64,000 bases of DNA from the NCBI RefSeq assembly GCF_003122385.1, contig NZ_CP029255.1:1426001-1490000 (forward strand), in the 5' to 3' direction. Under the pieces are notes generated by a model. It ran no database searches and was not told the origin of the DNA. It saw only the letters and a list, made by a program, of their open reading frames with translations. The translations under genes and the position numbers were made by a program. Below, piece after piece: positions 16,031 through 64,000 of this stretch; positions within the stretch are counted from its first letter, which is position 1; every line of letters starts with the position of its first letter. This DNA comes from Flavobacterium crocinum (GTDB lineage Bacteria > Bacteroidota > Bacteroidia > Flavobacteriales > Flavobacteriaceae).

Positions 16031-16086
16031 AGTTAGTTTTTATCTGTTGTAACAAAAATAGTACTTTTTGTGAGATTGTTATATCA

Positions 16087-16268
16087 TTAACCGCAAAGTG
16101 CGCAAAGAGTTTACGCAAAGCACGCAAAATTAATCTCGCAAAGCCGCAGAAGCGAAAAGTTTTAAAATTTCTTTGCGACTTGGCGTCTTTGCGAGATCCT
16201 TTTAATCGTTATTTTATAAAATAAAACTTAGCGAACCTTGCGCAATACTTTACGCTCTTTGCGGTTAA
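16087..16268. repeat. Nested palindromic repeat of GCAAAG words
   Basis: Outer arms TTAACCGCAAAG (16087-16098) and its reverse complement (16257-16268). Inner arms ATCTCGCAAAG (16133-16143) and its reverse complement (16187-16197). The sequence between is made of degenerate CGCAAAG words on both strands. The same vocabulary recurs at 54521-55230 and 59789-59854. It fills the gap between the TonB receptor and the peptidase gene. Confidence 0.75.
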
Positions 16269-16276
16269 ATAAAATT

Positions 16277-18484
16277 TTATAAGTTGAAGTTAACTCCCAA
16301 AACGATATTTCTACCAATGTTTGGAATGCCGTCTGTTTTCAGTCTTGAAAGGTGTGCAATATATTTTTTGTCAAATAAATTGTTTCCGTTTAGGTTAATG
16401 TCAAAAGCCGTTTTTCCTAATTTAACAGTTCCTCCAAAACCTAAATTTACCAAAGTATAGCCTTTTGAAGCAGTTTCAAAACCACTTACATTATCCTGGC
16501 TAAAAGTTGAAGAAACATTTAGCGAAGCAAAACCTTCACTTAACCAATTTTTGATATTAAATTCAGTTCTAAGCGTATTATTCCAATTATTTGCAGGAAT
16601 TAAAGGCAGATAATCGTCATTGTCCTTTTTTCCGGTAACCGTTTCAAAACTTGTTTCAAAATGCAACCAGTCTAAAGGATGCGGGTGAAAGTGCAGACCA
16701 ACTTCACCACCGTACAATTGTGCATTATCCTGAACATAAGCAAAAACATCATTGTCTTCTAAAACTTCTCCAGTTGGCGAAGTGTAGATATAATTGTTTA
16801 CATGATTGTAAAATCCGTTTACGAAGAATTCAAAGTGCGAATTTTTGTATTCTAAGTTTAAATCGGTCTGAACGTTTTGTTCTGTTTTCAGATTCGCATT
16901 TCCAATTTCGTATCTGTTAGTTCCTTCGTGAACACCGTTTGAAGTTAATTCAGCTAAGTTTGGCGCTCTAAATCCTGTAGCAACATTTAAACGAAGTGTC
17001 AACGGTTCAGCCAATTTTGTTTTATAGCCTAAAGAAGCATTAAAACTGTCAAAAGAACGATCCAAAGCCTGGAAATAACCTTCTTCACCTTCAGTTCCGT
17101 GAGCTATTGAATTGACGTTTCTATTGTCAAAACGCAATCCGGCTTGTAAAACACTGTTGTTCCATTCGTAGTTAGCTGTTCCAAATACACCAAAATCATT
17201 AGTTGTAGCATCCGGAATTAAATACTCTTCACCGGAATTTTTGTTGGTTTGATGCATTCCCTGAACACCAACAATTGTTTCAATTTTTCCGAGTTTAGGA
17301 AAATGATATTTTGCATTGTAATTGAAAGTATTCAGTTTCATGTGAAGAGAAGCTTCGTTGCTGTCTTCAAATTCGCTTCTGTCATTGGCAATATAACCCA
17401 AATCAACATCCAGTTTAGAGTTTTCAAAAAAGATAACATTGTTTAAACTCAATAAATGATTGAAAATTCCTTGTCTTGGAAATTGAGTGTCTTTGCTTGA
17501 AGATTGTTCTGCAATTCCGTCTTCCGGAATTCCAATATCCAGTTTGTTGTAATTGTATCTTAAAACACTAGAAAAAGTAGAGTTGCTGTATCCAATTCCG
17601 GTTTTAAAATCGGTTTCGTTATAACGTGAATTCGTTACGCGATCTCCGTCAGCAATTTTGTAATCAGAATGCGTATTGTAACTTCCGCGAGCTAAGAATT
17701 TCCAGTTGTCTGTCGATGTTTTTAATCCGATTGAAGAATTGCTTCCTTGTGTATTGGTAAAATATTTTTGACTGAAATTTGCTTTAAAATCGCCTGCATC
17801 AGCAAATTTTTCAGGATTAAAGTATAAAACTCCACCTAAAGCATCGGAACCGTATAATAAAGAAGCTGGCCCTTTAATCACTTCAACACTTTCGATTCCG
17901 GCATCGTTTAAACCTAAACCATGTTCGTCTCCAAATTGCTGATTTTCGATACGAACACCTTGAGAATATACTAAAACACGGTTACCGCTCAATCCACGAA
18001 TTACAGGTTTTCCAATAGAAGTTCCAGTCGAAATCTGTGAAACTCCGGGAATTGTAGCCAGACCTTCAATTAAAGTTGAGGTTCCTTTTTGCTGTAATGT
18101 TTTGATACTTTCGTGCTCGATTTTCATTACATTTTGTGATTGCAATTTATTGAATGGAGTAGAAACCACTACTTCATCCATTTCTAAGATAGATTCTTCA
18201 AGTGTAATGTCTAAAGTATTCTGTTTTAGTAATTTTACGATAGTTTTATTCTGATTAGCGTAGCCAACATAAGTAAAAGCAAGTCTAAGACTTCCGTTTG
18301 GAAGATTGTTTAATTCATATTTCCCGTTTGCATCTGTAGTTGTTCCTTTGTGAATTTCAGGTGCATATACAGAAACGCCAGGTAATGGATTATTTTGATT
18401 ATCGGTTACAGTACCAGAAACCGAATTTTGAGCAGATAGAATGCCCGAGAACCCTAAAATAAGGGCAATTATAAATTTTTTCAT
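16277..18484 (-). CDS. TonB-dependent outer-membrane receptor with carboxypeptidase-like N-terminal domain
   Basis: 735 residues. A signal peptide (MKKFIIALILGFSGILSAQ) is followed by a carboxypeptidase-regulatory-like domain (VSGTVTDNQNNPLPGVSVYAP), a plug domain (IPGVSQISTGTSIGKPVIRGLSG, then IKGPASLLYGSDALGGVLYF) and the 22-strand barrel ending NIVLGVNFNL. It imports a substrate across the outer membrane using TonB energy. A loop with HFHPHPLDWLHFE and the neighbouring small His/Cys protein hint at a metal or metal complex. The gene follows the small protein gene by 160 bases on the same strand and is probably co-transcribed. Confidence 0.93.
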   Translation of the reverse strand: MKKFIIALILGFSGILSAQNSVSGTVTDNQNNPLPGVSVYAPEIHKGTTTDANGKYELNNLPNGSLRLAFTYVGYANQNKTIVKLLKQNTLDITLEESILEMDEVVVSTPFNKLQSQNVMKIEHESIKTLQQKGTSTLIEGLATIPGVSQISTGTSIGKPVIRGLSGNRVLVYSQGVRIENQQFGDEHGLGLNDAGIESVEVIKGPASLLYGSDALGGVLYFNPEKFADAGDFKANFSQKYFTNTQGSNSSIGLKTSTDNWKFLARGSYNTHSDYKIADGDRVTNSRYNETDFKTGIGYSNSTFSSVLRYNYNKLDIGIPEDGIAEQSSSKDTQFPRQGIFNHLLSLNNVIFFENSKLDVDLGYIANDRSEFEDSNEASLHMKLNTFNYNAKYHFPKLGKIETIVGVQGMHQTNKNSGEEYLIPDATTNDFGVFGTANYEWNNSVLQAGLRFDNRNVNSIAHGTEGEEGYFQALDRSFDSFNASLGYKTKLAEPLTLRLNVATGFRAPNLAELTSNGVHEGTNRYEIGNANLKTEQNVQTDLNLEYKNSHFEFFVNGFYNHVNNYIYTSPTGEVLEDNDVFAYVQDNAQLYGGEVGLHFHPHPLDWLHFETSFETVTGKKDNDDYLPLIPANNWNNTLRTEFNIKNWLSEGFASLNVSSTFSQDNVSGFETASKGYTLVNLGFGGTVKLGKTAFDINLNGNNLFDKKYIAHLSRLKTDGIPNIGRNIVLGVNFNL

Positions 18485-18644
18485 TTGAAAATGATGCTAT
18501 AGTTAAATTGATTTTTTTCTTTCGAATGAAAAACCAAAGCAAACAGTAAAGCATTCTGATCCCGATTATAGAAACAGGATTAGAAAACTCATTGCTGCAT
18601 GAATTTAAATTAAAAGAAATTTGATTTTTTCTAAAATAGAAAAC

Positions 18645-18998
18645 TTAAGAAACTATAGTAGCAGGGGGTCCGCGCAATAAATAAGCGCTTTTTGGAATAG
18701 AAAAAATCTTTTCTGACAGCGGAAAGAAATAAGGAATATCGCTGTTGAAATAGTAAAACTGAAAAGAGAAATTTTGCGGAACAATAAACGATTCAAAAGC
18801 AAAATGGCAAACAAAACAAACGTCATAATCATGATGCTGATGCGTTATTTCGCCATTAGGATCATTGTAATTATGATGACACTGCTTTTCTGAAAGCTGT
18901 TTTACAATATGCTCATAACTGTGTATGGACTGAAACAATATCGAGAACAATATTGTGACAGCAAACGAAAGACTTAATATGAGCTGTTTTTTCTTCAT
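18645..18998 (-). CDS. Small membrane-anchored His/Cys protein beside a TonB receptor (uncharacterised)
   Basis: 117 residues from ATG 18998; an upstream in-frame TTG at 19007 is less likely. One N-terminal hydrophobic segment (LILSLSFAVTILFSILF) is followed by HSYEHI, a His-rich stretch (QCHHNY, THQHHDYD), a CFVC pair, an aromatic-rich segment and a C-terminal LRGPP. A paralogue with the same order of motifs lies at 60095-60445, also next to a TonB receptor. I do not recognise a named family. Exposed His and Cys suggest periplasmic metal binding in the service of the receptor; this is inference. Confidence 0.8.
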   Translation of the reverse strand: MKKKQLILSLSFAVTILFSILFQSIHSYEHIVKQLSEKQCHHNYNDPNGEITHQHHDYDVCFVCHFAFESFIVPQNFSFQFYYFNSDIPYFFPLSEKIFSIPKSAYLLRGPPATIVS

Positions 18999-19073
18999 TT
19001 CCTGCAAAGGTATAAAACATAAAAAGAAAATTCATTTATTTTTTACCGTTTTCAGCTGATTTATTGAAAAATA

Positions 19074-19156
19074 TGCAACGATTATTTTTATTAGCAATTA
19101 AAATAAGAATATTTGTATTTCTTATCGTTGCTAAAAAAAGCATTATAGTATATTTG
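19074..19156 (+). promoter_or_regulatory. Divergent regulatory region with promoter of the barrel gene
   Basis: On the plus strand TTG (19128-19130), 18 bases and TATATTTG (19149-19156) form a good promoter for the gene at 19225. GCAACGAT (19075-19082) and ATCGTTGC (19124-19131) are an exact inverted pair 41 bases apart, the second lying on the -33 box. Between them ATAAGAA (19103-19109) faces TTCTTAT (19119-19125). These dyads lie between the TonB-associated small gene and the barrel gene and are candidate regulator sites. Confidence 0.5.
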
Positions 19157-19224
19157 TATATAAAATAAATAAGCTCCCAAAAGCGTTTGTTTAAATAACT
19201 TCCTTATAAAACCAAATTTACGAT

Positions 19225-19929
19225 ATGCGAATTATTTTTAGCTGCCTGTTTTTACTCACTTTTTTCAGCTCTTTTGCACAAGAAGAGGTTAAACCTGAAG
19301 TAAAACCGGTAATAAAAATAGATTCTTTGTATCGGGAAGATCAGTTTTATTTTTCGGTTACTTATAATATGTTTACCGATATTCCAATTGACTTTAAACA
19401 GAATAAATTTTCTTTGGGTCTTTCCGGAGGTTTTCTTCGTGATATGCCGGTTAATAAATCCAGAACAGTTGCAATTGCAGCCGGATTGGGATTAAGTTAT
19501 CAAAATTATAATCAGAATTTAACGATTTCAAGAGATGGGCAAGGAGCAATTATATACGGAGTAAATAACTCCAGTGAATTTGTTTCAAACCGTTACAGAC
19601 AATATTCCATAGATCTTCCAATAGAATTCAGATGGCGAAATTCAACCTACGAAAGCACTAAATTCTGGCGTATTTATGGTGGTGTAAAATTGAGTTATAT
19701 TTTTTCGAGCACCTCTCTTTTAGATGATGGTGAAAACAATTATAAAATTAATAATAACAAGGATATCAATAAGTTTCAGTATGGCCCTTATTTGGCTGCA
19801 GGATATAATACTTGGAACGTATATCTTTATTATGGTTTAAGTCCGTTGTTTAATTCTGCGACCACTTTGTCTGGAGAAAAAATCAACATGAAAACTTTAA
19901 ATGCAGGATTGATTTTTTATATTTTATAG
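19225..19929 (+). CDS. PorT-like outer-membrane beta-barrel protein
   Basis: 234 residues with a signal peptide (MRIIFSCLFLLTFFSSFAQ), then strands of a small barrel (LSLGLSGGFLRDMPVN, RQYSIDLPIEFRWR, FQYGPYLAAGYNTWNVYLYYGLSP) and a terminal strand ending in FYIL. It resembles PorT-family barrels, one of which serves the type IX secretion system. The neighbours here do not prove that role, so I keep to the family. Its 3' end overlaps the convergent membrane-protein gene by 6 bases. Confidence 0.75.
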   Translation: MRIIFSCLFLLTFFSSFAQEEVKPEVKPVIKIDSLYREDQFYFSVTYNMFTDIPIDFKQNKFSLGLSGGFLRDMPVNKSRTVAIAAGLGLSYQNYNQNLTISRDGQGAIIYGVNNSSEFVSNRYRQYSIDLPIEFRWRNSTYESTKFWRIYGGVKLSYIFSSTSLLDDGENNYKINNNKDINKFQYGPYLAAGYNTWNVYLYYGLSPLFNSATTLSGEKINMKTLNAGLIFYIL

Positions 19930-20529
19930 CCACAAATATAAAAACAAAAGCTGAGGCATTATCCCGACAAACAAACCAATCAATATTTCTCTGGAAGTAT
20001 GCGCATTCATTTCTAAGCGTGATGAAGCCACAATTCCCGATAACAAAATCAGTAAAGCCGGCCAGTACGGATTATGCATTTGAAGATGAATGTTTAAACC
20101 AATCACAAAAATGGCAAAACCGCAGATGGCAACCATATGTAAACTCGCTTTTATTTTAAAAAGAGCAAAAACCAAAGCCAGAATTGCACTAAACAAAGCT
20201 CCCAGAAAAAAGAAATGAAGTTCCGGATAACGGGTAATTACAATACTTCTTTTTACCAGTAAAATATACAAAAAACACTGTAAAATTAACGGAATAGTAC
20301 GCTCTGAAGTCTGACTCAGCATAATTGATTTTACATGTCCGGTTGATCGAAGCAACAGATAAAACAAAATAGGCACTATTACATTAATGACCAAAATCTG
20401 CAATAAAACAAAGTATTTTTCCTGCGTACTGAAAAGATCTTCTTTACAGAACAAATAAAATAAAGTGGCATAAAGCGATATAAAAATCGGATGTAATATA
20501 TAGGAGAAAAGTGGAAGTATTTTTTTCAA
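19924..20529 (-). CDS. Integral membrane protein, possibly degenerate PAP2-like
   Basis: 201 residues with five or six hydrophobic segments. Near the C-terminus SLHMVAICGF and SSRLEMNAHTSREILIGLFVG resemble the second and third motifs of PAP2 phosphatases (SxH, SRxxxxxHxxxD), but the final Asp is replaced by Glu and the first motif is not clear. It may be a PAP2 relative that has lost or changed activity. It is convergent with the barrel gene, sharing 6 bases of 3' end. No function is assigned. Confidence 0.7.
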   Translation of the reverse strand: MKKILPLFSYILHPIFISLYATLFYLFCKEDLFSTQEKYFVLLQILVINVIVPILFYLLLRSTGHVKSIMLSQTSERTIPLILQCFLYILLVKRSIVITRYPELHFFFLGALFSAILALVFALFKIKASLHMVAICGFAIFVIGLNIHLQMHNPYWPALLILLSGIVASSRLEMNAHTSREILIGLFVGIMPQLLFLYLWL

Positions 20530-54520: not shown

Positions 54521-55230
54521 TAACGCAAAGTACGCTGAGATTTACGCAAAGTACGCAAAGTTTTGTTGAGTAAATCTTTAGATTAAAAGTTCGCAAAGCT
54601 TTGTCTGGATAAAGCTTCGCGAACTTAATATTTAGATATTGCTTGCGCTTCAGATTAAAATGTCTTAGCGTGCTTTGCGTTAAAAAAACTACTTGTTGTC
54701 TAACCGCAAAGCACGCTAAGATTTACGCAAAGCACGTAAAGTTTTGTAGTAAATCTAGATTAAAAGTTCGCAAAGTTTTGTCTGGATAAAGCTTCGCGAA
54801 CTTAATATTTAGATATTGCTTGCGCTTCAGATTAAAATGCCTTAGCGCGCTTTGCGGTTAAAAAACTACTTGTTGACTAATTGCAAAGCACGCAAAGTTT
54901 TGTTGAGTAAATCTTTAGATTAAAAGTTCGCAAAGCTTTGTCTGGATAAAGCTTCGCGAACTTAATATTTAGATATTGCTTGCGCTTCAGATTAAAATGT
55001 CTTAGCGTGCTTTGCGTTAAAAAAAACTACTTGTTGTCTAACCGCAAAGCACGCTAAGATTTACGCAAAGCACGCAAAGTTTTGTGGAGCAAATCTTTAG
55101 ATTAAAAGTTCGCAAAGTTTTGTCTGGATAAAGCTTTGCGAACTTAATATTTAGATATTGCTTGCGCTTCAGATTGAAATGTCTTAGCGCACTTTGCGGT
55201 TAAAAAACTACTTGTTGACTAATTGCAAAG
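54521..55230. repeat. Higher-order tandem array of palindromic GCAAAG repeats
   Basis: Four units start near 54521, 54701, 54878 and 55039, with lengths of about 180, 177, 161 and 181 bases. Every unit begins with CCGCAAAGCACGCTAAG-like words and ends with the reverse complement, and has an inner hairpin (AGTTCGCAAAG...CTTCGCGAACT). Units 1 and 3 end in ACTACTTGTTGTC; units 2 and 4 end in ACTACTTGTTGAC. So a dimer of two unit types was duplicated. There are no open frames or unique spacers. It lies between the lipoprotein pair and the putative metal-uptake locus. Confidence 0.9.
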
Positions 55231-55270
55231 AAGCTGCCTTTTGGGACAACCTCTTTTTTCCAAAAATTAA

Positions 55271-56491
55271 TTAATGACTATGGCTTTCGCTGTTTTCATA
55301 TCCGATAACGGTAATCATATAAGGCGTTGCAGAAACCTTTGTCTTTTTAATTTCTGATGAAGAAAGATTTACCTGCAATAATTCTCCGGTTGTTGGCGAA
55401 GTGATATAGGCAAATTTGTCTGTAACGGCCATTTGAGGTTTTAATGTTGCATCTGTCGCCGTTGCAGTAGTGGCTTTGATTTCTTTTTCTACTTGCTGAC
55501 TGCTGATATTGAAAATTTTAAGATCTCCTGAATGTAAAAGTACAGCCAGTTTTTTAAGATCATAACTTACTTTGCACTGCATAATGGTAGTGTTGGCAAT
55601 AATTGGTTTTACTGTGCCGGCAACAACATCAATTAAATAAGCACCTTTTGCTGCAGTATATCCAATAAACTTTCCAGCAGAAGCCGTTTCTAAAATACTT
55701 CCAAACCAAGCCGCTCCAAAATCTTCTGGATGATTGATTAACTTCTGGTTTCCGTTGCTTTCCACAACCAAAATGCCACTTGAAGAACCAAAAACAGCAT
55801 AAACACCGTCTGAAGCATTTCCGTGAATTCCTTTGGTTTGAATTTTAGCATCAAAAAGTGTTTTTCCGGTGTTGTCAATGATTTTTACTTTTTCAGGAAG
55901 TGTTCCTGTAACCGAATTATCTTTTTCAGTAATAGCATAAGTTCCGTTTGTAAAAGTCGCCATGGCACCGTGATGTGCCAATAAACCAGCATTTACAGTT
56001 TTGAAAACCGCACCAGATTTATTGATCTCAGATTCTTTTCCAACAGAAAGCGTTCCGTCTCCGTCGTTGAATGTCAGAACTTCGCCAATTTTACTTTTAA
56101 AGTGTGTTGGTTTTTGAGCACTTCCAGTTAAGAAACCAAATTTCGGAACATCATCTACGTCAATATGGTCGCCGTGCATTTCAAGTCCGCTGTCGAAAGT
56201 TTCGATTAAATTATTATCTCTGTGAATGATTCCCGCAAAACGTCCCGATTCTGTAGTGTACAAAGAGGATTTTGGAAATTTAGCCGTAAAAGAACTGATT
56301 TTATCTTCTGAGGGATCAAAAAGCGTTAACTCTGTAGTTTTTTCGTCAGAAAGTAAAATTCTAACATAAGTATGTTCTGCCGAATCATGGTCGTGATCGT
56401 GATCATCATGATTATCATCATCGTTGCTGCACGAAACCGCAAAAAGCGACAGTGTGAATAAAAAAAGTGCTTTGTAAAAATTGTTTTTCAT
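55271..56491 (-). CDS. AztD-like His-rich beta-propeller lipoprotein (probable zinc chaperone)
   Basis: 406 residues. The lipoprotein signal peptide ends at AVSCSNDDD and is followed by a His/Asp run (DDDNHDDHDHDHDSAEH). The rest is a propeller with His motifs I recall from the zinc chaperone AztD: MHGDHIDVDDVPK, QKPTHF, LAHHGAMATF and GIHGNASDG. AztD carries zinc in the periplasm; here it is lipid-anchored and lies next to a TonB receptor instead of an AztABC transporter. The C-terminus is ENSESHSH. The gene is last in its locus. The family call rests on memory. Confidence 0.65.
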   Translation of the reverse strand: MKNNFYKALFLFTLSLFAVSCSNDDDNHDDHDHDHDSAEHTYVRILLSDEKTTELTLFDPSEDKISSFTAKFPKSSLYTTESGRFAGIIHRDNNLIETFDSGLEMHGDHIDVDDVPKFGFLTGSAQKPTHFKSKIGEVLTFNDGDGTLSVGKESEINKSGAVFKTVNAGLLAHHGAMATFTNGTYAITEKDNSVTGTLPEKVKIIDNTGKTLFDAKIQTKGIHGNASDGVYAVFGSSSGILVVESNGNQKLINHPEDFGAAWFGSILETASAGKFIGYTAAKGAYLIDVVAGTVKPIIANTTIMQCKVSYDLKKLAVLLHSGDLKIFNISSQQVEKEIKATTATATDATLKPQMAVTDKFAYITSPTTGELLQVNLSSSEIKKTKVSATPYMITVIGYENSESHSH

Positions 56492-56542
56492 TGTAATAAA
56501 GGATTAAAAATTTGTAAATAATAGAGTTTTGAATTGCCGGAT

Positions 56543-58750
56543 TTATCGCGAAACCAAAAACGGAATCTTCATAGAAACAATAATGTTTCTTCCCGCTTCA
56601 GGAAGTTCGATAAGTCGGTAAAAGCTGGTGTGATTTAAATATCTTGTATTAAATAAATTCTGGATCTGAATATTGATGCTGATATCCTGTTTTCCTGTTT
56701 TTACTTTTGAGCCAAAGGCCAGATTAAAAACATGACTTTCCTTGGTCTTTTTTTCTGGCGGAACGATATTATTTTGTTCTGCTGTAAAACGATAATCAAA
56801 AGAAAAATAAGGTTCTTTTAAAAAGCTAATTTGAGGTTCGTAATTCAATCCAAACAAAACCGAAGGCGGTGGCGAAAATGGAAGCGTATAACCTTTTTTG
56901 CTTCCTGATTTTTGTTCCGAATAAAGATATTCGGCACCGATTTCTGCGCTCAGAGATTTCAGGAAATAATATCTTGTCTGCAATTCTGCACCGTAGCGAA
57001 AGACTTTACTTTGTTCGTATTCAAAAACCTGATTTCCTGCACCATAATAAATGTCATGAGCCGAGGTTGGATTCAGATAAATAAAATTCGGAAAATAATT
57101 GGCAAACGGAGTAAACTGAAAAGAGAAGTTTTGGTCTTTCCATTCCATTCCCAAATCCAGTTGATAGGAACGTTCTGCATCCAAATTCGGATTTCCTTTT
57201 TCGAATCGGAAATAATGATAATTCACGCCGTTTGAAGCCAGTTCTTTGGCAATAGGCATTCTAAAACTCGAACCCAAATTGGCTTTCAGCGAAAGTTTTC
57301 CCGGATTGTAATTTGCTCCAACCGACCATGTAAAACTGTCAAATGTTTTAGTCAAATCTTGAGAACGCTGTAAATATTCCATTTCCGTCTGATTGTTTTC
57401 AGAAACGGGACTTTCAAACCAATCGTGATAGGATTTCATGTTGATTTTTCCATAATCGTAACGAACAGCGCCGTTTAAAAACCATTTTTCATTCAGTTCC
57501 ATTTTGTCATAAGCAAATAAACCCGCGTTGAATTGTGTGAAAGACGGAATTAAAAAACTCCATCCCCCAATTTCATTTTGCTGGAAAACCACATTCGAAC
57601 CAACCGTAATTTGATGATTATTCATTCTGAATTCATCTTTAGCAGAAAACGACCAGACATCCTTATCATATTGACGTTCCAAATCTTGCGGGGCGTACAT
57701 ATCTTCAGGATAAATTGGAGACATATAACCATGATTAACATAATGGCTATATTCTCTTCTAAAATTATTTTGAAAACCTATCTGGGTTTCAAAAGCATGA
57801 TTTCCCAACTGAAAGGAAGTAGTATTACTCACCTTTAAATGATTGACTTGCTGATACGGCATCAAAATATCACGGCTCGATTTATCGTGTAATTCCAGAT
57901 CTACATTTCGCGGTTCGAGTCCATGCGCATTCGCGAAAAATCCGCTTTTGGTATGAACGTTACTGAAATAGAAAACCGATTTAAAATGCTCTCCGGAATA
58001 GCCTGAACTTAAATGAAAATCAAATTCACGTCCAGCCGTATTTCGCAGATGATTTTTGTATAACGGAACAGCATAACTATACACATGAACCACATCTGTT
58101 GGAACGCGATAATCGCCGTAATCCATTGTGGTTATTCGAGAATCAAAGAACCATTTTTTGTTTCTTCCAAATAAATTAATAGAACTTCCAAATTGCGCAT
58201 TGTTGCTTTTTCCGGTAAGATCTACGCTTCCGCCAAAAGTGTTTTGAGACGGAAAAGGAAGCGGTTTAATATTGATTGCACCGCCCACAGCATCAGATCC
58301 ATAGATAAATGAAGAAGGGCCTTTTATAATTTCTACCCGATTAACCGCATATTGATCGATTTCCAGTCCGTGATCCGCGCCCCATTGCTGGCCTTCGTGT
58401 TTCAAACCGTTCTCCACCACAATAACCTGATTGAAACTCAAACCACGAATAAGCGGTTTAGAACCTCCGGAACCAATCGAAATGGTTTTAACGCCCGGCA
58501 ATTTCTGCAAAGACTGCATCAGACTTCCGCCAAGATTACGCTGAATGAAACTATTGTTTACCGTTTCGACATTCAGCGATTCCTCTTTTTTGCTTTTTTG
58601 TGCAGAATTATTGCTGATTAAAACTTCTTCAAGCTCCTTGATTTTCGGTTTCTTTTCTGAAGGCTGATTTTGAGAAATAGCTTCCGTCTTAATTAATAAA
58701 CTGATAAGTAAAAAACAATATTTCCAATACATGGATAGGGCATTCTTCAT
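56543..58750 (-). CDS. TonB-dependent outer-membrane receptor of the metal locus
   Basis: 735 residues. A signal peptide is followed by the plug (KLPGVKTISIGSGGSKPLIRGLSF, IKGPSSFIYGSDAVGGAINIKP) and a barrel ending NIIVSMKIPFLVSR. Unlike the receptor at 16277-18484 it has no carboxypeptidase-like N-terminal domain. Loops are rich in His, such as NVHTKSGFFANAHGLEP and EYSHYVNHGYMSP. It lies between two small lipoproteins and an AztD-like lipoprotein, so it most likely imports zinc or a zinc complex. Overlapping or tight spacing indicates one operon. Confidence 0.92.
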   Translation of the reverse strand: MKNALSMYWKYCFLLISLLIKTEAISQNQPSEKKPKIKELEEVLISNNSAQKSKKEESLNVETVNNSFIQRNLGGSLMQSLQKLPGVKTISIGSGGSKPLIRGLSFNQVIVVENGLKHEGQQWGADHGLEIDQYAVNRVEIIKGPSSFIYGSDAVGGAINIKPLPFPSQNTFGGSVDLTGKSNNAQFGSSINLFGRNKKWFFDSRITTMDYGDYRVPTDVVHVYSYAVPLYKNHLRNTAGREFDFHLSSGYSGEHFKSVFYFSNVHTKSGFFANAHGLEPRNVDLELHDKSSRDILMPYQQVNHLKVSNTTSFQLGNHAFETQIGFQNNFRREYSHYVNHGYMSPIYPEDMYAPQDLERQYDKDVWSFSAKDEFRMNNHQITVGSNVVFQQNEIGGWSFLIPSFTQFNAGLFAYDKMELNEKWFLNGAVRYDYGKINMKSYHDWFESPVSENNQTEMEYLQRSQDLTKTFDSFTWSVGANYNPGKLSLKANLGSSFRMPIAKELASNGVNYHYFRFEKGNPNLDAERSYQLDLGMEWKDQNFSFQFTPFANYFPNFIYLNPTSAHDIYYGAGNQVFEYEQSKVFRYGAELQTRYYFLKSLSAEIGAEYLYSEQKSGSKKGYTLPFSPPPSVLFGLNYEPQISFLKEPYFSFDYRFTAEQNNIVPPEKKTKESHVFNLAFGSKVKTGKQDISINIQIQNLFNTRYLNHTSFYRLIELPEAGRNIIVSMKIPFLVSR

Positions 58751-58760
58751 TAATCTGATC

Positions 58761-59231
58761 TTATAAAATTTTAATACTTAAACCTTTCAGCGTTTGCCAG
58801 CCTTCTTTGTCCGTCAGGCGAATCATAAAATGGTAATCTCCGGGATCAACATCTGCAGGAATGGTAATTTGTGCCGTTGCTTCGTAGCTTTTTACACCAT
58901 TTGGAATTGTGTAATTGTTGATGAAAAGCATTGGTTTTACAGGCTTTTTTACCGCTTCCATCTCACAAGTTGTCACTTCTGTACTATGCGTGTGATGATC
59001 GAAATTGTGATGAATGTCAAGGCTGTAAGAACCCAAAGCAACATTGTCATTAAAAGTGGCTTTAAATGTGATCGTTTGACCGCGCGAAATTGTACTGCAT
59101 TGAATCGGAAAAGCATTTGCTCCGGTAATATCAATTACGGGATATTCCGTATCGATTTCTCCATTATCGCTGGAACAGGATGAAATAAGGACAAGAGTCA
59201 AAACGCCAAAGAGAAACTTTATTTTTTTCAT
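58761..59231 (-). CDS. Small lipoprotein of DUF4625 type (second of two)
   Basis: 156 residues. The lipoprotein signal peptide ends at SSCSSDNG. A single Ig-like domain has the His-rich strand LDIHHNFDHHTHSTEV and a Cys pair outside the signal (one in QCSTIS, one in TTCEME). The C-terminus DPGDYHFMIRLTDKEGW is typical of these domains. The His cluster could bind metal. It overlaps the gene before it by four bases and is 10 bases from the TonB gene. The DUF assignment is from memory. Confidence 0.75.
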   Translation of the reverse strand: MKKIKFLFGVLTLVLISSCSSDNGEIDTEYPVIDITGANAFPIQCSTISRGQTITFKATFNDNVALGSYSLDIHHNFDHHTHSTEVTTCEMEAVKKPVKPMLFINNYTIPNGVKSYEATAQITIPADVDPGDYHFMIRLTDKEGWQTLKGLSIKIL

Positions 59232-59659
59232 ATTTTTTGTTTTATAATTGTTAGGTTTTTCTTCACTTCCAGCTTACTTCCGTTTTGATCGTTTATGATA
59301 ATGATGAAATCGTATTTCCCCTCTACAGCATCTTCAGGAATATCAAAATGTTTGTGAACTGTGGCATTTTTTGCTCCTGCATATTGTGTCCAGGTAATTT
59401 CATGTGACCAGGGTTTTGAATACGTTTCGGTACTTTTTTGCACAATTTTAACCTGAACATTTTCGATTTTATCTGAAGCCGTTACTTCAGCATTAAAATG
59501 GAAATCTTGTCCAATAGTTGCTGTTTCACTGTTGCCAAGACCTAGTTCGATTTTGTCAATAGCAGGAACTGCCTGTTCTTTTTCGGAATCGTCGTTGCTA
59601 CAGCTTGTAAAAGCAATGGAAGCAAAAAGCGAAGCCAGAATGAGTTTTGTTGTTTTCAT
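59228..59659 (-). CDS. Small lipoprotein of DUF4625 type (first of two)
   Basis: 143 residues from ATG 59659, eight codons after an in-frame upstream start, because the lipoprotein signal (MKTTKLILASLFASIAFTSCSNDD) begins there. One Ig-like domain has histidines in SHEITW and VHKHFDI and ends YDFIIIINDQNGS. It is related to the next gene by fold and order. It is the first tightly packed gene of the metal locus; a 435-base gap separates it from the small His/Cys gene. Confidence 0.75.
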   Translation of the reverse strand: MKTTKLILASLFASIAFTSCSNDDSEKEQAVPAIDKIELGLGNSETATIGQDFHFNAEVTASDKIENVQVKIVQKSTETYSKPWSHEITWTQYAGAKNATVHKHFDIPEDAVEGKYDFIIIINDQNGSKLEVKKNLTIIKQKI

Positions 59660-59683
59660 TTTTTCTGATTTGATTTTGATCAT

Positions 59684-60094
59684 TTTATAAGTAGTATTTG
59701 GGTTACGAAAGAGTTTTTTAATGCCTTTAAGCTTTTATGGCTAAAGACATTAGGTTGAGTTTTTCTTTAAGGTTTTCTTTGATTTAGCTCTCGAAAAGTC
59801 GCGAAGGCGCAAAGACAATGGTTCTAAACTTTGCGTCTTCGCGACTTTGCGAGAACAAACAAATTGCTTAAAACAGCAAAGCCGTAACTAGACCTGAATT
59901 AGGATTTAGTTTGAATGTGTTAATCGATAAAAAGGGGAGTTCTTTTGTGCAGAAAAAGCAGAGATCAATAATAATATCAATAATTGTTTAATTGCTTAAA
60001 ATGAATGGAATAACTTTTTAATGTTTTAAGATTTTAAAATCATTAAAACAATGAAATAGCCGAATTGCCAAAGCAAAACTGAGCACAAAAAAGA
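59684..60094. other. Gene-free stretch with a GCAAAG palindrome and an AT-rich hairpin
   Basis: The palindrome at 59789-59813 and 59830-59854 is 25 bases long with two mismatches (TCTCG...AAAGTCGCGAAG words), a member of the family at 54521-55230. An AT-rich hairpin at 60023-60049 (centre GATTTTAAAATC) follows the small His/Cys gene and may end or slow its transcript. No start with a good promoter is seen for the lipoprotein genes. Confidence 0.6.
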
Positions 60095-60445
60095 CTAAAA
60101 TGTAAAAGGCGGGGCTCGAAGGGAAAATAAAGCGCCCTTAAAAAATGCAAAATGCGGTTTGTTGTAAAAAGTAAGGTGTTTTACAACAGGATTATTCTTG
60201 AAAAACTGAAAAACACTAAATTCAAACGTACCAACCGCACTAAATTTAAAATCACAAATCGAACATTTATGAAACGAATGCAGTTTGGCCTTAAATTGCG
60301 GTTTTTCGGAAACAGAAAATTCTAATTTTTCTTTTGACGAATGAGTATCTAAAATATGCTCATACGAATGGACAGCCGGAAAAAGTATTGCAAACAATAC
60401 AATTAAAGGCATTAAGAGATTAATAATTTTAAGTTTCTTTTTCAT
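60095..60445 (-). CDS. Small membrane-anchored His/Cys protein at the head of the metal locus (uncharacterised)
   Basis: 116 residues. One hydrophobic N-terminal helix (LLMPLIVLFAILF) is followed by HSYEHI, a middle with scattered Lys and His, then LHSFHKCSICDFKF and a C-terminal LRAPP. The order of motifs is the same as in 18645-18998. Both proteins sit next to TonB receptors. The role is unknown; a periplasmic metal-binding helper of the receptor is the best guess. Its promoter carries two dyads on the -33 and -7 boxes. Confidence 0.8.
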   Translation of the reverse strand: MKKKLKIINLLMPLIVLFAILFPAVHSYEHILDTHSSKEKLEFSVSEKPQFKAKLHSFHKCSICDFKFSAVGTFEFSVFQFFKNNPVVKHLTFYNKPHFAFFKGALFSLRAPPFTF

Positions 60446-60485
60446 TCGTTGAGATTATTTCCGACTCATTTAAAACCAGAATTAA

Positions 60486-60538
60486 TGCAATAGTGTTGCA
60501 AATATAGAAATCTTATTTTTAAATGCAACGTTGTTGCG
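60486..60538 (-). promoter_or_regulatory. Promoter of the metal locus with two overlapping operator dyads
   Basis: On the minus strand TTG (60528-60526), 19 bases and TATATTTG (60506-60499) form a consensus promoter for the small His/Cys gene. TGCAA-N5-TTGCA (60486-60500) overlaps the -7 box; TGCAA-N5-TTGCG (60524-60538) contains the -33 TTG. Centres are 38 bases apart. A dimeric repressor on either dyad would block the polymerase, as Fur/Zur-type proteins do. Confidence 0.65.
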
Positions 60539-60545
60539 GTAATTG

Positions 60546-60577
60546 TTTGCGAAAAATCAATGCTTTTGCTACTTTTA
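60546..60577 (+). promoter_or_regulatory. Promoter of the M1 aminopeptidase gene
   Basis: TTTG (60546-60549), 20 bases and TACTTTTA (60570-60577) match the consensus except for the last base. Predicted start near 60584, 16 bases before the ATG. It faces the metal-locus promoter. Confidence 0.5.
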
Positions 60578-60599
60578 GCAAATCTTATATTCCTTAAAA

Positions 60600-63167
60600 A
60601 TGAAAATTTTCTACAGCCTTGTTTGTTTTGTCGTCTTGATTTCCAATGCTTTTTCGCAGTCAAAAGAAAATGAATTATTTGAAAATGGTGTTTCAGAGCA
60701 GTTGGCGCACTTTCGAAAAAAACAGATTTCAGATCTTCAGTACACTTTGTTTTTCGAAATTCCGAATCAAAAAGTGGAGAATATAAATTCTCAGTTATTC
60801 GTAAATTTGAATTTATCTGATTTGAGCCAGCCCTTACTTTTTGATTTTAAAGAAAAAACTACTAACATAAAAACGGTTGAAGCCAACGGGAAAAAGCTTT
60901 CGATTGTTCATGAAAACGGTCATATCATAATTCCGGTTTCAGCATTGGTTTCAGGAAAAAATACGGTTTCCATTTCATTTATCGCCGGGAATTTGTCCTT
61001 AAACAGAAATGACGATTTCTTGTATACTTTGTTAGTTCCGGATCGCGCAAGTACATTGTTTCCGTGTTTCGATCAGCCCGATTTAAAAGCAACTTATAAA
61101 TTAAGACTTTCTGTGCCAAAAGACTGGTCGGTTTTGGCTGGAGCCGATGTGGTAGAGAAACTCGAAAAAGGAGATTTTACAGCTTATACTTTTGGAGAAT
61201 CAGACAAAATGAGTACTTATTTATTTTCTTTCGTAGCAGGAAAATTCAAAAGTGCGACCCAAAAACCAGGTTTAGAAATGACGATGTTATATCGTGAAAA
61301 CAGCCCGGAGAAATTTCGCGTAAGTGCTGATACTATTTTTAATTTACATCAGCAATCGTTACACTTTTTAGAAAAATATACCGATCGTAAATTTCCGTTT
61401 CAGAAATTAGATTTCGCTTCAATTCCTGTTTTCCAATATGGCGGAATGGAACATGTTGGTGCAATTCAATACAGAGAATCGACTTTGTTTTTGGATAACA
61501 GCGCAACCGACAGCGAGAAATTAAATCGTGCAAAATTGATTGCTCATGAAACCTCACACATGTGGTTTGGTGATTTGGTTACGATGAAATGGTTTGACGA
61601 CGTTTGGATGAAAGAGGTTTTTGCGAACTTTATGGCCGATAAAATCATGAACCCAATTTTTCCGAAAGTCAATCATAATCTGCAGTTTTTCACGGCGCAT
61701 TATCCAAGCGCTTACGCAGAAGACCGATCTTTGGGAACACATCCTATCAAACAGCATTTAGCGAATTTAAAAAATGCAGGTTCGCTTTATGGTGCGATTA
61801 TTTACAACAAAGCGCCCATTATGATGCGTCAGTTAGAAGCTTCGATGGGAAAGGAAGCTTTTCAGAAAGGAATTCAAAAATACATTCAGAAATACGCCAA
61901 CGACAACGCCGATTGGAATAATCTAGTAGAACTTCTCGATGCCGAAACACCGCTTGATATGAAAAAATGGAGCGAGGTTTGGGTAAACAAATCCGGAAGA
62001 GCCATTTTTACAGATAAAGTCGAATACGATTCTAAAAACCGAATTAAGAGTTTTGAAATTCAACAACAAGCCGAGGATAAATCAGAGAATATCTGGCCAC
62101 AGGTTTTTCAGATTGGTTTAGTTTATGCGAAAGAGGTAAAGATTTTATCGGTCAATATTAATGACAAAAATACCCTCGTAAAAGAGGCTGTCGGACTTGA
62201 AAAACCGCTTGCCGTTGTGTACAATTATAACGGTTTTGGATACGGAGTTTTTCCGCTTGACGGGAATAATTTAAATTATATTGCTACGCTGAAAGATGAG
62301 GTTGCAAGAGCTTCGAGTTACAGCAATCTTTATGAAAATACATTAATTAGAAATGTTTCTCCAAATCAGGCTTTTGATTGTTTTTTAAAGGCAATTGAAA
62401 CAGAACAAAACGAATTGGTTTTGAGAATTGCCTCAAATAGTCTGAATACAATTTACTGGAGATTTTTTAACGAAAAACAACAGAACAAAGTTCAGAAACA
62501 GCTTGAAGGTATTTTGAATGAACGTTTGCAGGCTAATTTATCTGCGAATATCAAAAAGACATTATTCGGATTATTTAGTTCGATAGCGTATTCAAATTCG
62601 GCGAAAGCCAGTTTATATAAGGTTTGGAACAGAGAAATCTCGATTCCGAATTTGAAACTAAATGAGGACGATTATACTAACATGGCAATGAATCTGGCGA
62701 TTTTTAAACATCCAAAAGCCGATGAGATTTTGGAGAAAACCAGAACATCGTTCACCAATCCGGATAAACAAAAGCGTTTTGAGTTTTTATTACCTTCATT
62801 ATCAAAAGATGAATCAGTTCGAAATGCTTTTATGGAATCTTTAAAAGACGATGCAAACCGTGAAAAAGAATCCTGGGTTTCTGTTGGATTGGCGAATATT
62901 CATCATCCGCTTCGTCAGGAAAGTGCACAAAAATATATCAGATTTTCATTAGATTTGGTTGATGAAATTCAGCGAACGGGAGATATTTTCTTTCCGAAAG
63001 ACTGGCTGGATAATACGGTTGGGAAATATTCGTCGAAATTTGCTTTTGATGAAGTACAGCGATTCTTAAAAGAAAATCCTAATTTTAGTCCAATCTTGAA
63101 ACGCAAATTGTTTCAGGCGACAGATTTGCTTTATAAAGCACAAAATATTAAAAAGGAAACCGAATGA
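60600..63167 (+). CDS. M1-family zinc aminopeptidase
   Basis: 855 residues with a signal peptide (MKIFYSLVCFVVLISNAFSQ). The N-terminal beta domain leads to the substrate-gate GGMEHVGA, the zinc motif HETSH at 316-320 with Glu317 catalytic and Glu339 as third ligand, then helices of the C-terminal domain. It removes N-terminal residues from peptides in the periplasm. It overlaps the next gene by four bases and is divergent from the metal locus. Confidence 0.95.
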   Translation: MKIFYSLVCFVVLISNAFSQSKENELFENGVSEQLAHFRKKQISDLQYTLFFEIPNQKVENINSQLFVNLNLSDLSQPLLFDFKEKTTNIKTVEANGKKLSIVHENGHIIIPVSALVSGKNTVSISFIAGNLSLNRNDDFLYTLLVPDRASTLFPCFDQPDLKATYKLRLSVPKDWSVLAGADVVEKLEKGDFTAYTFGESDKMSTYLFSFVAGKFKSATQKPGLEMTMLYRENSPEKFRVSADTIFNLHQQSLHFLEKYTDRKFPFQKLDFASIPVFQYGGMEHVGAIQYRESTLFLDNSATDSEKLNRAKLIAHETSHMWFGDLVTMKWFDDVWMKEVFANFMADKIMNPIFPKVNHNLQFFTAHYPSAYAEDRSLGTHPIKQHLANLKNAGSLYGAIIYNKAPIMMRQLEASMGKEAFQKGIQKYIQKYANDNADWNNLVELLDAETPLDMKKWSEVWVNKSGRAIFTDKVEYDSKNRIKSFEIQQQAEDKSENIWPQVFQIGLVYAKEVKILSVNINDKNTLVKEAVGLEKPLAVVYNYNGFGYGVFPLDGNNLNYIATLKDEVARASSYSNLYENTLIRNVSPNQAFDCFLKAIETEQNELVLRIASNSLNTIYWRFFNEKQQNKVQKQLEGILNERLQANLSANIKKTLFGLFSSIAYSNSAKASLYKVWNREISIPNLKLNEDDYTNMAMNLAIFKHPKADEILEKTRTSFTNPDKQKRFEFLLPSLSKDESVRNAFMESLKDDANREKESWVSVGLANIHHPLRQESAQKYIRFSLDLVDEIQRTGDIFFPKDWLDNTVGKYSSKFAFDEVQRFLKENPNFSPILKRKLFQATDLLYKAQNIKKETE

Positions 63168-64000
63168 AAATTGAATCGGAAATAGAGAAAGTCTCCAGTT
63201 TTCAGCATCTCGAAATGCTGGCGAACCAGGTTGTGGAAGGTTTTATATCGGGAATGCACAAGAGTCCATTTCATGGATTTTCGGCCGAATTTGCCGAACA
63301 TAAAGTTTATAACGCAGGCGAAAGTACCAAACATATCGATTGGAAATTGTTTGCCAAAACCGATCGTTTATACACGAAACGTTTTGAGGAAGAAACCAAT
63401 TTACGCTGTCATTTGATTGTCGATAATTCGTCGTCAATGCATTATCCTGAATTGAAATCGAATCAGCCTTTTTATGAAAAGAAGATTGGTTTTGCGGTTT
63501 TGGCTTCGGCGGTTTTAATGAATATTTTAAAGAAACAGCGCGATGCCGTTGGTCTGAGCGTTTTCTCAGATAAATATGAATATTACGCACCCGAAAAAGG
63601 AAGCGATCGTCATCACAGAATGCTTTTGAATAAACTGGAAGAATTGTTGGTTCAGCCAAAAGTCAAAAAAACGACTGATACGATTACGTATTTGCATCAG
63701 ATTGCAGAGAAAATGCACCGTCGTTCGATGATTATTTTGTTTACCGATATGTTTCAGACGGAAGACGATGAAAAGCTTTTCAACGCTTTACAGCATCTTA
63801 AACACAACAAACATAAAGTAGTTTTATTTCACGTAGTGGATAATGAAACCGAACTGAAGTTTGATTTTGACAACGCACCAAGAAAGTTTATCGACTTAGA
63901 ATCAGGTGAAGAGGTTTCTATTTTTGCGGATAATGTAAAACAGGAATACGAAAAAAGGGTAGAAGCTTATTTTAAAAACCTGGCTTTAACCTGTGCAAAG
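63164..64000 (+). CDS. DUF58 domain protein, cut by the window end
   Basis: 279 codons are visible with no stop. The start overlaps the aminopeptidase stop (ATGA). The sequence begins MKIESEIEKVSSFQHLEMLA, and has KSPFHGFSAEFAEHKVYNAGE, IDWKLFAKTDRLYTKRFEEETN, and the metal-ion-dependent adhesion-like DNSSSM, all typical of DUF58 proteins. Such proteins are usually encoded with MoxR ATPases and von Willebrand-domain proteins; those may lie beyond the window. Probably a cytoplasmic or membrane-associated factor. Confidence 0.9.
   Translation, partial: MKIESEIEKVSSFQHLEMLANQVVEGFISGMHKSPFHGFSAEFAEHKVYNAGESTKHIDWKLFAKTDRLYTKRFEEETNLRCHLIVDNSSSMHYPELKSNQPFYEKKIGFAVLASAVLMNILKKQRDAVGLSVFSDKYEYYAPEKGSDRHHRMLLNKLEELLVQPKVKKTTDTITYLHQIAEKMHRRSMIILFTDMFQTEDDEKLFNALQHLKHNKHKVVLFHVVDNETELKFDFDNAPRKFIDLESGEEVSIFADNVKQEYEKRVEAYFKNLALTCAK

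Follow-up and report, generated by a model that had tools for sequence, protein, structure and literature searches.

Two small genes of Flavobacterium crocinum are probably metal-sensing leader open reading frames, in which arrest of the ribosome would switch the uptake genes downstream, the metal being most likely zinc. Both lie on the minus strand of the window analysed here, ie the 64,000-nt stretch from position 1,426,001 to 1,490,000 of contig NZ_CP029255.1, whose own numbering is used below unless a locus label is given. uORF A (60095..60445, 116 aa) is the first gene of its operon and follows the order HSYEHI...CSIC...LRAPP; uORF B (18645..18998, 117 aa) follows the order HSYEHI...CFVC...LRGPP and has a receptor gene directly next to it. 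Both were recognised by ORF translation and homology. In uORF A the codons of CSIC, a CxxC motif at residues 61-64, are at 60254..60265 (minus strand), and those of RAPP, residues 110-113 and three residues from the end, are at 60107..60118 (minus strand); the RGPP codons of uORF B are at 18663..18674 (minus strand). A preliminary description had proposed two proteins of about 117 residues with a common order of motifs, related to one another as paralogues. All of this was borne out: the ORFs are present, HSYEHI, CxxC and the C-terminal LRAPP or LRGPP occur in the same order in both, and BLASTP aligned them with 31% identity over 115 columns (E=4e-14).

The window contains 138 ATG ORFs with 40 aa or more; R[AG]PP within 10 residues of the C-terminus is confined to uORF A and uORF B. 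A third paralogue of 116 aa is present elsewhere in the genome (G000:C1:3427325-3427672) and is 46% identical to the 60-kb protein, which itself is 99% identical to a protein of F. quisquiliarum. In these three own copies the PP pair stands 3 or 5 residues from the end, and the gaps to the next gene are 411 nt (60-kb copy), 160 nt (18.6-kb copy) and 186 nt (third copy). Searches of Pfam, NCBIfam and PHROGs with single small proteins returned low-score matches only, none of them useful, and Rfam gave no match at gathering score in 55000-64000 or 16000-20000 of the window.

Homologues were collected with both proteins, 57 from the uORF A search and the best 120 of 141 from the uORF B search. CxxC is followed by R[AG]PP at 44-46 residues in 174 of these 177 (44 in 98, 45 in 74 and 46 in 2), with RGPP in 100 and RAPP in 74; the motif is 2-5 residues from the C-terminus in 173 and 8 residues in one. 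The other three have no RxPP and appear truncated or frame-shifted. Across an alignment of 31 rows from several genera (A2), the only invariant residues are H30, C61, C64, R110, P112 and P113, the two cysteines with the bias that rows were picked among CxxC members and a Cys-poor distant kind was left out. C61 and C64 are invariant also in a second alignment of 28 rows (A1), and alignment of the leaders revealed a hydrophobic stretch at the N-terminus. Six of 27 distant leaders (L106, L107, L112, L115, L117 and L119) have no second Cys in CxxC; they keep His-rich stretches and R[AG]PP, and perhaps have a different metal site. Locus L121 has two leader-like ORFs in tandem, the second starting 563 nt beyond the first. 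Of 101 Flavobacterium genomes sampled, 97 have the family, as do 46 of 299 sampled from Flavobacteriaceae, both samples being drawn from larger groups, and a leader was detected in 16 of the 20 loci of one further set.

This plan is close to that of CruR (bp2923) of Bordetella, a DUF2946 (PF11162) protein encoded by a copper-responsive uORF before a TonB receptor; according to the available text, its CxxC and RAPP are 45 residues apart, RAPP is 3 residues from the end, and both are needed for control of the receptor (PMC9426467). The proteins described here likewise have an N-terminal hydrophobic stretch, CxxC, an interval of 44-46 residues, R[AG]PP near the C-terminus, and a place at the head of a TonB receptor operon. 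Their relation to DUF2946 is less direct. Several homologues carry the UniRef label 'DUF2946 domain-containing', but the PF11162 profile was over its cut-off in none of 60 family genomes (two gave weak matches), found nothing in the own genome, and matched 3 of the 31 A2 members weakly, with a best E of 0.0026. No Pfam label occurred among the best 120 of 528 proteins found with the family alignment, and the neighbours of receptor homologues on five plasmid records, whose gene table is incomplete, included no gene annotated DUF2946. The small proteins are therefore filed, on their sequences, as CruR/CutF-like in working plan and outside Pfam DUF2946. The earlier statement that no named family has this plan is thus not entirely correct, since the plan is that of CruR/CutF-like leader ORFs and several homologues bear the DUF2946 label in UniRef, even though matches to the Pfam profile stay below its cut-off.

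Leaders of this general kind have been described. In the text available to us, RAPP and RGPP are reported to support arrest in several contexts, RGPP most strongly, with CruR arrest shown in vitro, and TonB-related RAPP/RGPP leaders are reported throughout Gram-negative bacteria (PMC12992588); the list of CutF-like proteins includes many from Bacteroidota (PMC9973294, available text). The kind of leader must be regarded as already known because of these TonB-related leaders and Bacteroidota entries. The arrest peptides of PMC12992588 and PMC10987492, as described in their available text, are small, mostly secretory proteins with the motif near the C-terminus; the proteins here are likewise small, with the motif near the C-terminus and a hydrophobic N-terminal stretch. 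CutF of Rhodobacter capsulatus (PMC9973294, available text) is a further parallel, being a leader with a metal motif and a C-terminal PP whose mRNA forms a stem over the next start, although CutF turns an oxidase on with copper, whereas the uptake genes here would be expected to be on without metal.

The genes that follow the leaders link them to metal uptake. Operon structure was read from strand and spacing. When same-strand genes of 90 aa or more are counted downstream of the leader, a TonB receptor is among the first three in 78 of 80 named loci, which are the best 80 of 189; it is first, second or third in 25, 24 and 29 loci, respectively. The next gene is a receptor in all 40 of the held-out loci of the genus, and in 24 of 27 distant loci, the others having a lipoprotein (two) or a second leader-like ORF (one). 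These 27 are the loci with a detected leader among 28, ie 30 minus the own genome and one same-genus genome. Homologues were thus not found mostly away from receptors, and the predicted linkage of the family to TonB receptors stands: the association with receptors of the metal-uptake type is very strong. The two named loci without a receptor, L070 and L073, both lead to CobW-family GTPases, which scored 559.5 and 97.5 bits against the ZigA model (cut-off 600), so that one is close to the zinc chaperone ZigA. The genes further along at L073 encode dCTP deaminase, FolE and a Fur-family protein.

At 18.6 kb the next gene encodes a 735-aa TonB-dependent receptor (16277..18484, minus strand; Pfam) with a CarboxypepD_reg-like domain, which is ZnuD-like (4rdr, E=6.8e-23). 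At 60 kb two DUF4625 lipoprotein genes (59228..59683, PF15418 E=2.3e-26, and 58761..59231, PF15418 E=1e-42, both minus strand) come between the leader and the third gene, a ZnuD-like TonB-dependent receptor (56543..58750, minus strand; Pfam; 4rdr, E=1.9e-17). The preliminary description had placed both leaders just upstream of a receptor, which is right for the 18.6-kb copy with its 160-nt gap and has to be amended for the 60-kb copy. The 60-kb operon goes on to a His-rich, AztD-like lipoprotein of the zinc metallochaperone family (55271..56491, minus strand; NCBIfam AztD E=1.7e-24, at 86 bits against a cut-off of 400; structure 6cmk E=1.7e-21). Its close relatives (53 named loci and the own one, referred to as the 60-kb group) have the same content of DUF4625 lipoproteins, receptor and usually an AztD-like lipoprotein; the AztD-like gene is downstream in 52 of the 53 named loci.

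In the operon of the third paralogue the leader is followed by an ABC ATPase, identified by eye, then by a TonB receptor and a pair of permease-like genes; the one permease-like gene that was scanned has ABC-2 and DUF3526 domains, and the receptor is above the siderophore-receptor cut-off (280.3 versus 223.5). In gene content this operon (L004:2334-8673) resembles the Zur-controlled znuK-znuGHI operon of Caulobacter, with its TonB receptor, ABC-2 ATPase and two permeases; no arrest leader is mentioned in the available text of PMC4176598. In many genera the gene after the receptor, or after the leader itself, encodes a lipoprotein of about 180-210 aa that contains a (V/I)(N/V)EEE(V/L)IT-like stretch (L194-L197, L199, L203, L204, L207, L209 and L211; also L108, L110 and L074); that of L074 had no match in Pfam or NCBIfam.

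The promoter of uORF A carries two Fur-type operator boxes. The pattern TTG-N19-TATATTTG at 60499..60528 (minus strand) is what we take to be a Bacteroidota-type promoter. Box 1, CGCAACAACGTTGCA, at 60524..60538 overlaps its -33 element, and box 2, TGCAACACTATTGCA, at 60486..60500 abuts the end of its -7 element, the two being 38 bp apart; both were located by pattern match and have no strand assigned. TTG-N17-23-TAnnTTTG occurs upstream of the leader in 53 of the 54 loci of the 60-kb group, overlapped by the Fur-type boxes, and in the intergenic region in one of 54. Scans for sigma-70-type promoters and terminators stayed at or below the level of shuffled sequence; the lone terminator-like match was operator box 1 itself read on the other strand, and was discarded.

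The 60-kb promoter, and the sites found from it, served to derive the palindrome TGCAACANTGTTGCA before relatives were scored, so the pattern was refined from the very own-genome sites that the box claim joins. At up to two mismatches it has 31 sites in the genome, versus 4 for the reversed control. Twenty-four of these lie inside genes; of the seven elsewhere, two are in a Fur-family/MerC intergenic region, two are at the 60-kb leader and one is at the third leader, while of the remaining two one precedes an efflux-adaptor-like gene (by eye) and one lies on the border of a further gene. When up to three mismatches were allowed, a box was present in all 54 loci of the 60-kb group, 40 of which have two boxes, always 38 bp apart; control sequence 220 nt inside the next gene had a box in none of the 54. 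L070 and L073 each carry a Fur-type box as well. No box was found at the 18.6-kb copy, at most of its relatives or at the 27 distant loci. At L185:4112-4950 a Fur-family gene and a gene with a MerC domain are read divergently from one promoter, in which two such boxes lie; at L074 the leader has as its divergent neighbour an orthologue of that Fur-family gene (66%). The Fur-family protein is over the cut-off of PF01475 (FUR), and scores 37.6, 33.0 and 27.9 bits with the PerR, Fur and Zur models, respectively, all far below cut-off.

The boxes held in common by the Fur-family gene and by operons with ZnuD-like and AztD-like genes resemble a zinc-starvation pattern. Zinc is the probable metal at the boxed loci, and the Fur-family repressor acting at the 60-kb boxes would probably be Zur. 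For the 18.6-kb group and the distant loci zinc is weaker because no box is there; at such loci it is suggested by ZnuD-likeness and by a receptor type common with L074, a boxed and AztD-linked locus whose receptor is what 17 of the 24 distant receptors match best. Counting against zinc, heme-receptor models scored slightly above ZnuD models on both window receptors, the receptor of the third copy is of siderophore type by its cut-off, and the Fur-family protein scores higher with the PerR and Fur models than with Zur. In the available text of the open-access literature searched, no zinc-responsive leader of this plan was found, and the word zinc is absent from the main text of the CutF paper (PMC9973294). 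For the TonB class, neither a link to zinc nor a Fur-type box nor a stem over the start is mentioned in the available text of PMC12992588 and PMC10987492, zinc occurring 0 times in their main texts, and the CruR authors state that neither copper nor zinc has a described riboswitch (PMC9426467, available text).

Copper would be the signal if these genes were the Bacteroidota counterparts of CruR at the head of copper-importing operons, which we consider rather unlikely. CruR and CutF are both copper-responsive, CxxC is a recognised Cu motif (PMC9426467, available text), the 18.6-kb receptor matches a copper-receptor model (98.4 bits) and, as its next solved relative, OprC (E=2.3e-13), and the box-less loci show no Fur-type box. 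However, the boxed loci combine Fur-type boxes with AztD-like, ZigA-like or FolE genes, ZnuD is the nearest solved relative of both window receptors, and Cu-related RAPP/RGPP leaders are reported absent from Bacteroidota (PMC12992588, available text). The neighbours are of zinc type rather than, as for CruR, copper type, and the CruR promoter is reported, in the text available, to have no Fur site, whereas one group here, the 60-kb group, has Fur-type boxes.

Where the receptor directly follows the leader, the mRNA can form a stem between the end of the one and the start of the other. Folds of the discovery loci contained a recurring pairing of the nucleotides right after RxPP with the region before the receptor ATG. 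In the 18.6-kb copy, folding and duplex energy place the core of the 5' arm, CTATAGTT, at 18651..18658 and that of the 3' arm, AACTATAG, at 18497..18504 (both minus strand), the latter lying 13-20 nt ahead of the receptor's ATG (18484); 2 of 200 arm shuffles paired equally well. Pairing was scored as the duplex energy of two short windows, native partners being compared with partners permuted within the group (10,000 permutations). The arms were defined after the folds of the discovery loci had been viewed, and the definition was left unchanged for a held-out set, in which 40 fetched loci were reduced to 36 (two in which no leader was found, one identical to a discovery locus and one with arms too short). 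Energies were -9.13 versus -5.91 kcal/mol permuted in the 18.6-kb group (26 loci), and -9.57 versus -5.46 kcal/mol in the distant Flavobacteriaceae (27 loci), with no permutation of 10,000 as good in either. The 36 held-out loci gave -8.90 versus -5.53 kcal/mol (0/10,000), a permutation number that does not count independent events, as some of these loci are kin of each other or of discovery species. Energies of -8 or lower were found in 25 of the 36, and in the six held-out loci with a box native pairing was again stronger than permuted (80/10,000).

Control windows paired more weakly, at -5.6 to -7.1 deeper in the receptor gene and -4.7 to -5.6 earlier in the leader. Pairing of -8 or lower was present in 36 of the 53 loci of the 18.6-kb and distant groups versus 2 of 54 in the 60-kb group; in those 36 the median 5' arm covers nucleotides 2 to 19.5 past the Pro codons and the median 3' arm -25.5 to -8. 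Taken singly, 12 of 26 loci of the 18.6-kb group, 17 of 27 distant loci and none of the 54 loci of the 60-kb group were above 95% of shuffles. The arm sequences differ among clades yet remain complementary, which we read as compensatory change. A stem that would hide the receptor start is thus well supported, from sequence comparison, at the directly linked loci. It was not found in the 60-kb group (54 loci; -3.76 versus -3.58, 1507/10,000), and pairing in the own third copy (-5.2) was not significant, 32% of shuffles being as good. The likeness to the CutF stem accordingly extends to the 18.6-kb group and to the distant and held-out loci, but not to the 60-kb group.

In the 60-kb group (59680-60094 in the window) the leader end may pair unusually well with a stretch 140-215 nt past the stop. 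Sliding pairing gave z values of -4.5 and -4.7 in two windows of 22 (0/2000 permutations), with weaker dips elsewhere and a strong sub-clade structure. Consensus folding, applied to the first part of the intergenic region at 60 kb, yielded nothing. The intergenic region also contains an inverted CGCAAAG...CTTTGCG repeat at 59800-59860 which is poorly kept in relatives.

CruR uses Rho-dependent termination, in distinction to the start-hiding stem proposed here, and the 60-kb group would be the best fit for a system of attenuation only, in which arrest shields the transcript from Rho and the stem is of secondary importance. In this group 52 of 54 intergenic regions contain more C than G, as do stretches of the window's own, and the intergenic distances are long (145-583 nt). 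The excess is modest, however, and equal or higher in the groups with the stem (C > G in 23/26 and 22/26), so base composition speaks neither for nor against a Rho route at 60 kb; the stem is also strong in the other groups. Attenuation alone appears distinctly unlikely.

The conservation and the pairing together bear on the original proposal of a helper, taken here as a mature periplasmic protein that would bind metal and pass it to or from the receptor. The pattern of His and CxxC is one of metal ligands, the genes are nearly always beside receptors, and there is constraint at the protein level, with pN/pS of 0.16 in the close clade of uORF A (19 aligned members) and 0 at residues 61-66. Against this, R[AG]PP is 2-8 residues from the stop in 174 of 177 homologues, CxxC and this near-stop motif are among the few residues kept across genera and correspond to the sensor and arrest site of CruR, and in two of 80 loci a GTPase gene takes the place of the receptor. 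The RNA just past RxPP pairs with the receptor start at directly linked loci; a switch acting in cis accounts for this pairing, whereas a helper protein leaves it unexplained. A regulatory leader ORF is the likely reading and the helper now seems very doubtful. More improbable again is that A/T-rich ends or terminators produce the stem signal incidentally: composition alone does give pairing (permuted means -5.5 to -5.9) and under two thirds of loci are significant singly, but permutation within groups preserves composition, three sets (one held out) gave 0/10,000, and pairing is weaker in control windows placed deeper inside the receptor gene or nearer the beginning of the leader.

The proposed leader switch would operate by the logic of CruR, ie low metal leading to arrest and arrest to uptake. 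At low metal the ribosome would stall at R[AG]PP, 2-5 codons from the stop in nearly all members. At directly linked loci the arrested ribosome would cover the nucleotides past RxPP and prevent their pairing with the receptor start region, which would stay open, and the receptor would be made. Metal binding to the His/CxxC site of the nascent chain would relieve the arrest; with the ribosome gone the stem would close and the receptor would be turned off. The usual ribosome footprint extends about 15-16 nt. Arrest occurs with the first Pro in the P-site, according to the available text of PMC12992588 and PMC10987492, and with that placement approximately 10 nt past the Pro codons, over half of the arm, would be covered. 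Hiding an A-rich start region would be a sensible means of control because Bacteroidia ribosomes fail to recognise Shine-Dalgarno sequences (PMC9976891, available text). At the 60-kb copy the two Fur-family repressor operators in the promoter may act as an added layer, and there arrest would have to reach a gene that starts 411 nt further on. A precedent for the opening of the stem is SecM-secA, in which the arrested ribosome melts a stem over the next start. The two are alike in an arrest-opened stem and differ in that SecM responds to secretion status and is Shine-Dalgarno based.

What we have not found described are the Fur-type boxes at the 60-kb copy and its 53 close relatives, and the stem between leader and receptor at the directly linked loci. 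The worked-out leader ORFs of this plan in the available literature respond to copper. The fullest form of the present proposal is a zinc-reading nascent chain, the first leader ORF to sense zinc via arrest, in which the arrested ribosome would free the receptor start from a stem made by the leader's own last codons, in a phylum that does not rely on Shine-Dalgarno sequences and with one branch under a Zur repressor; we regard the case for and against it as evenly balanced. It defines a concrete, testable switch, namely two short arms, one at RxPP and one at the start of the receptor. If the zinc version is true, metal sensing by arrest peptides would be more general, many proteins that now carry the name hypothetical or DUF2946 would become cis-acting control elements, and the control of outer-membrane zinc receptors in Flavobacterium would be explained.
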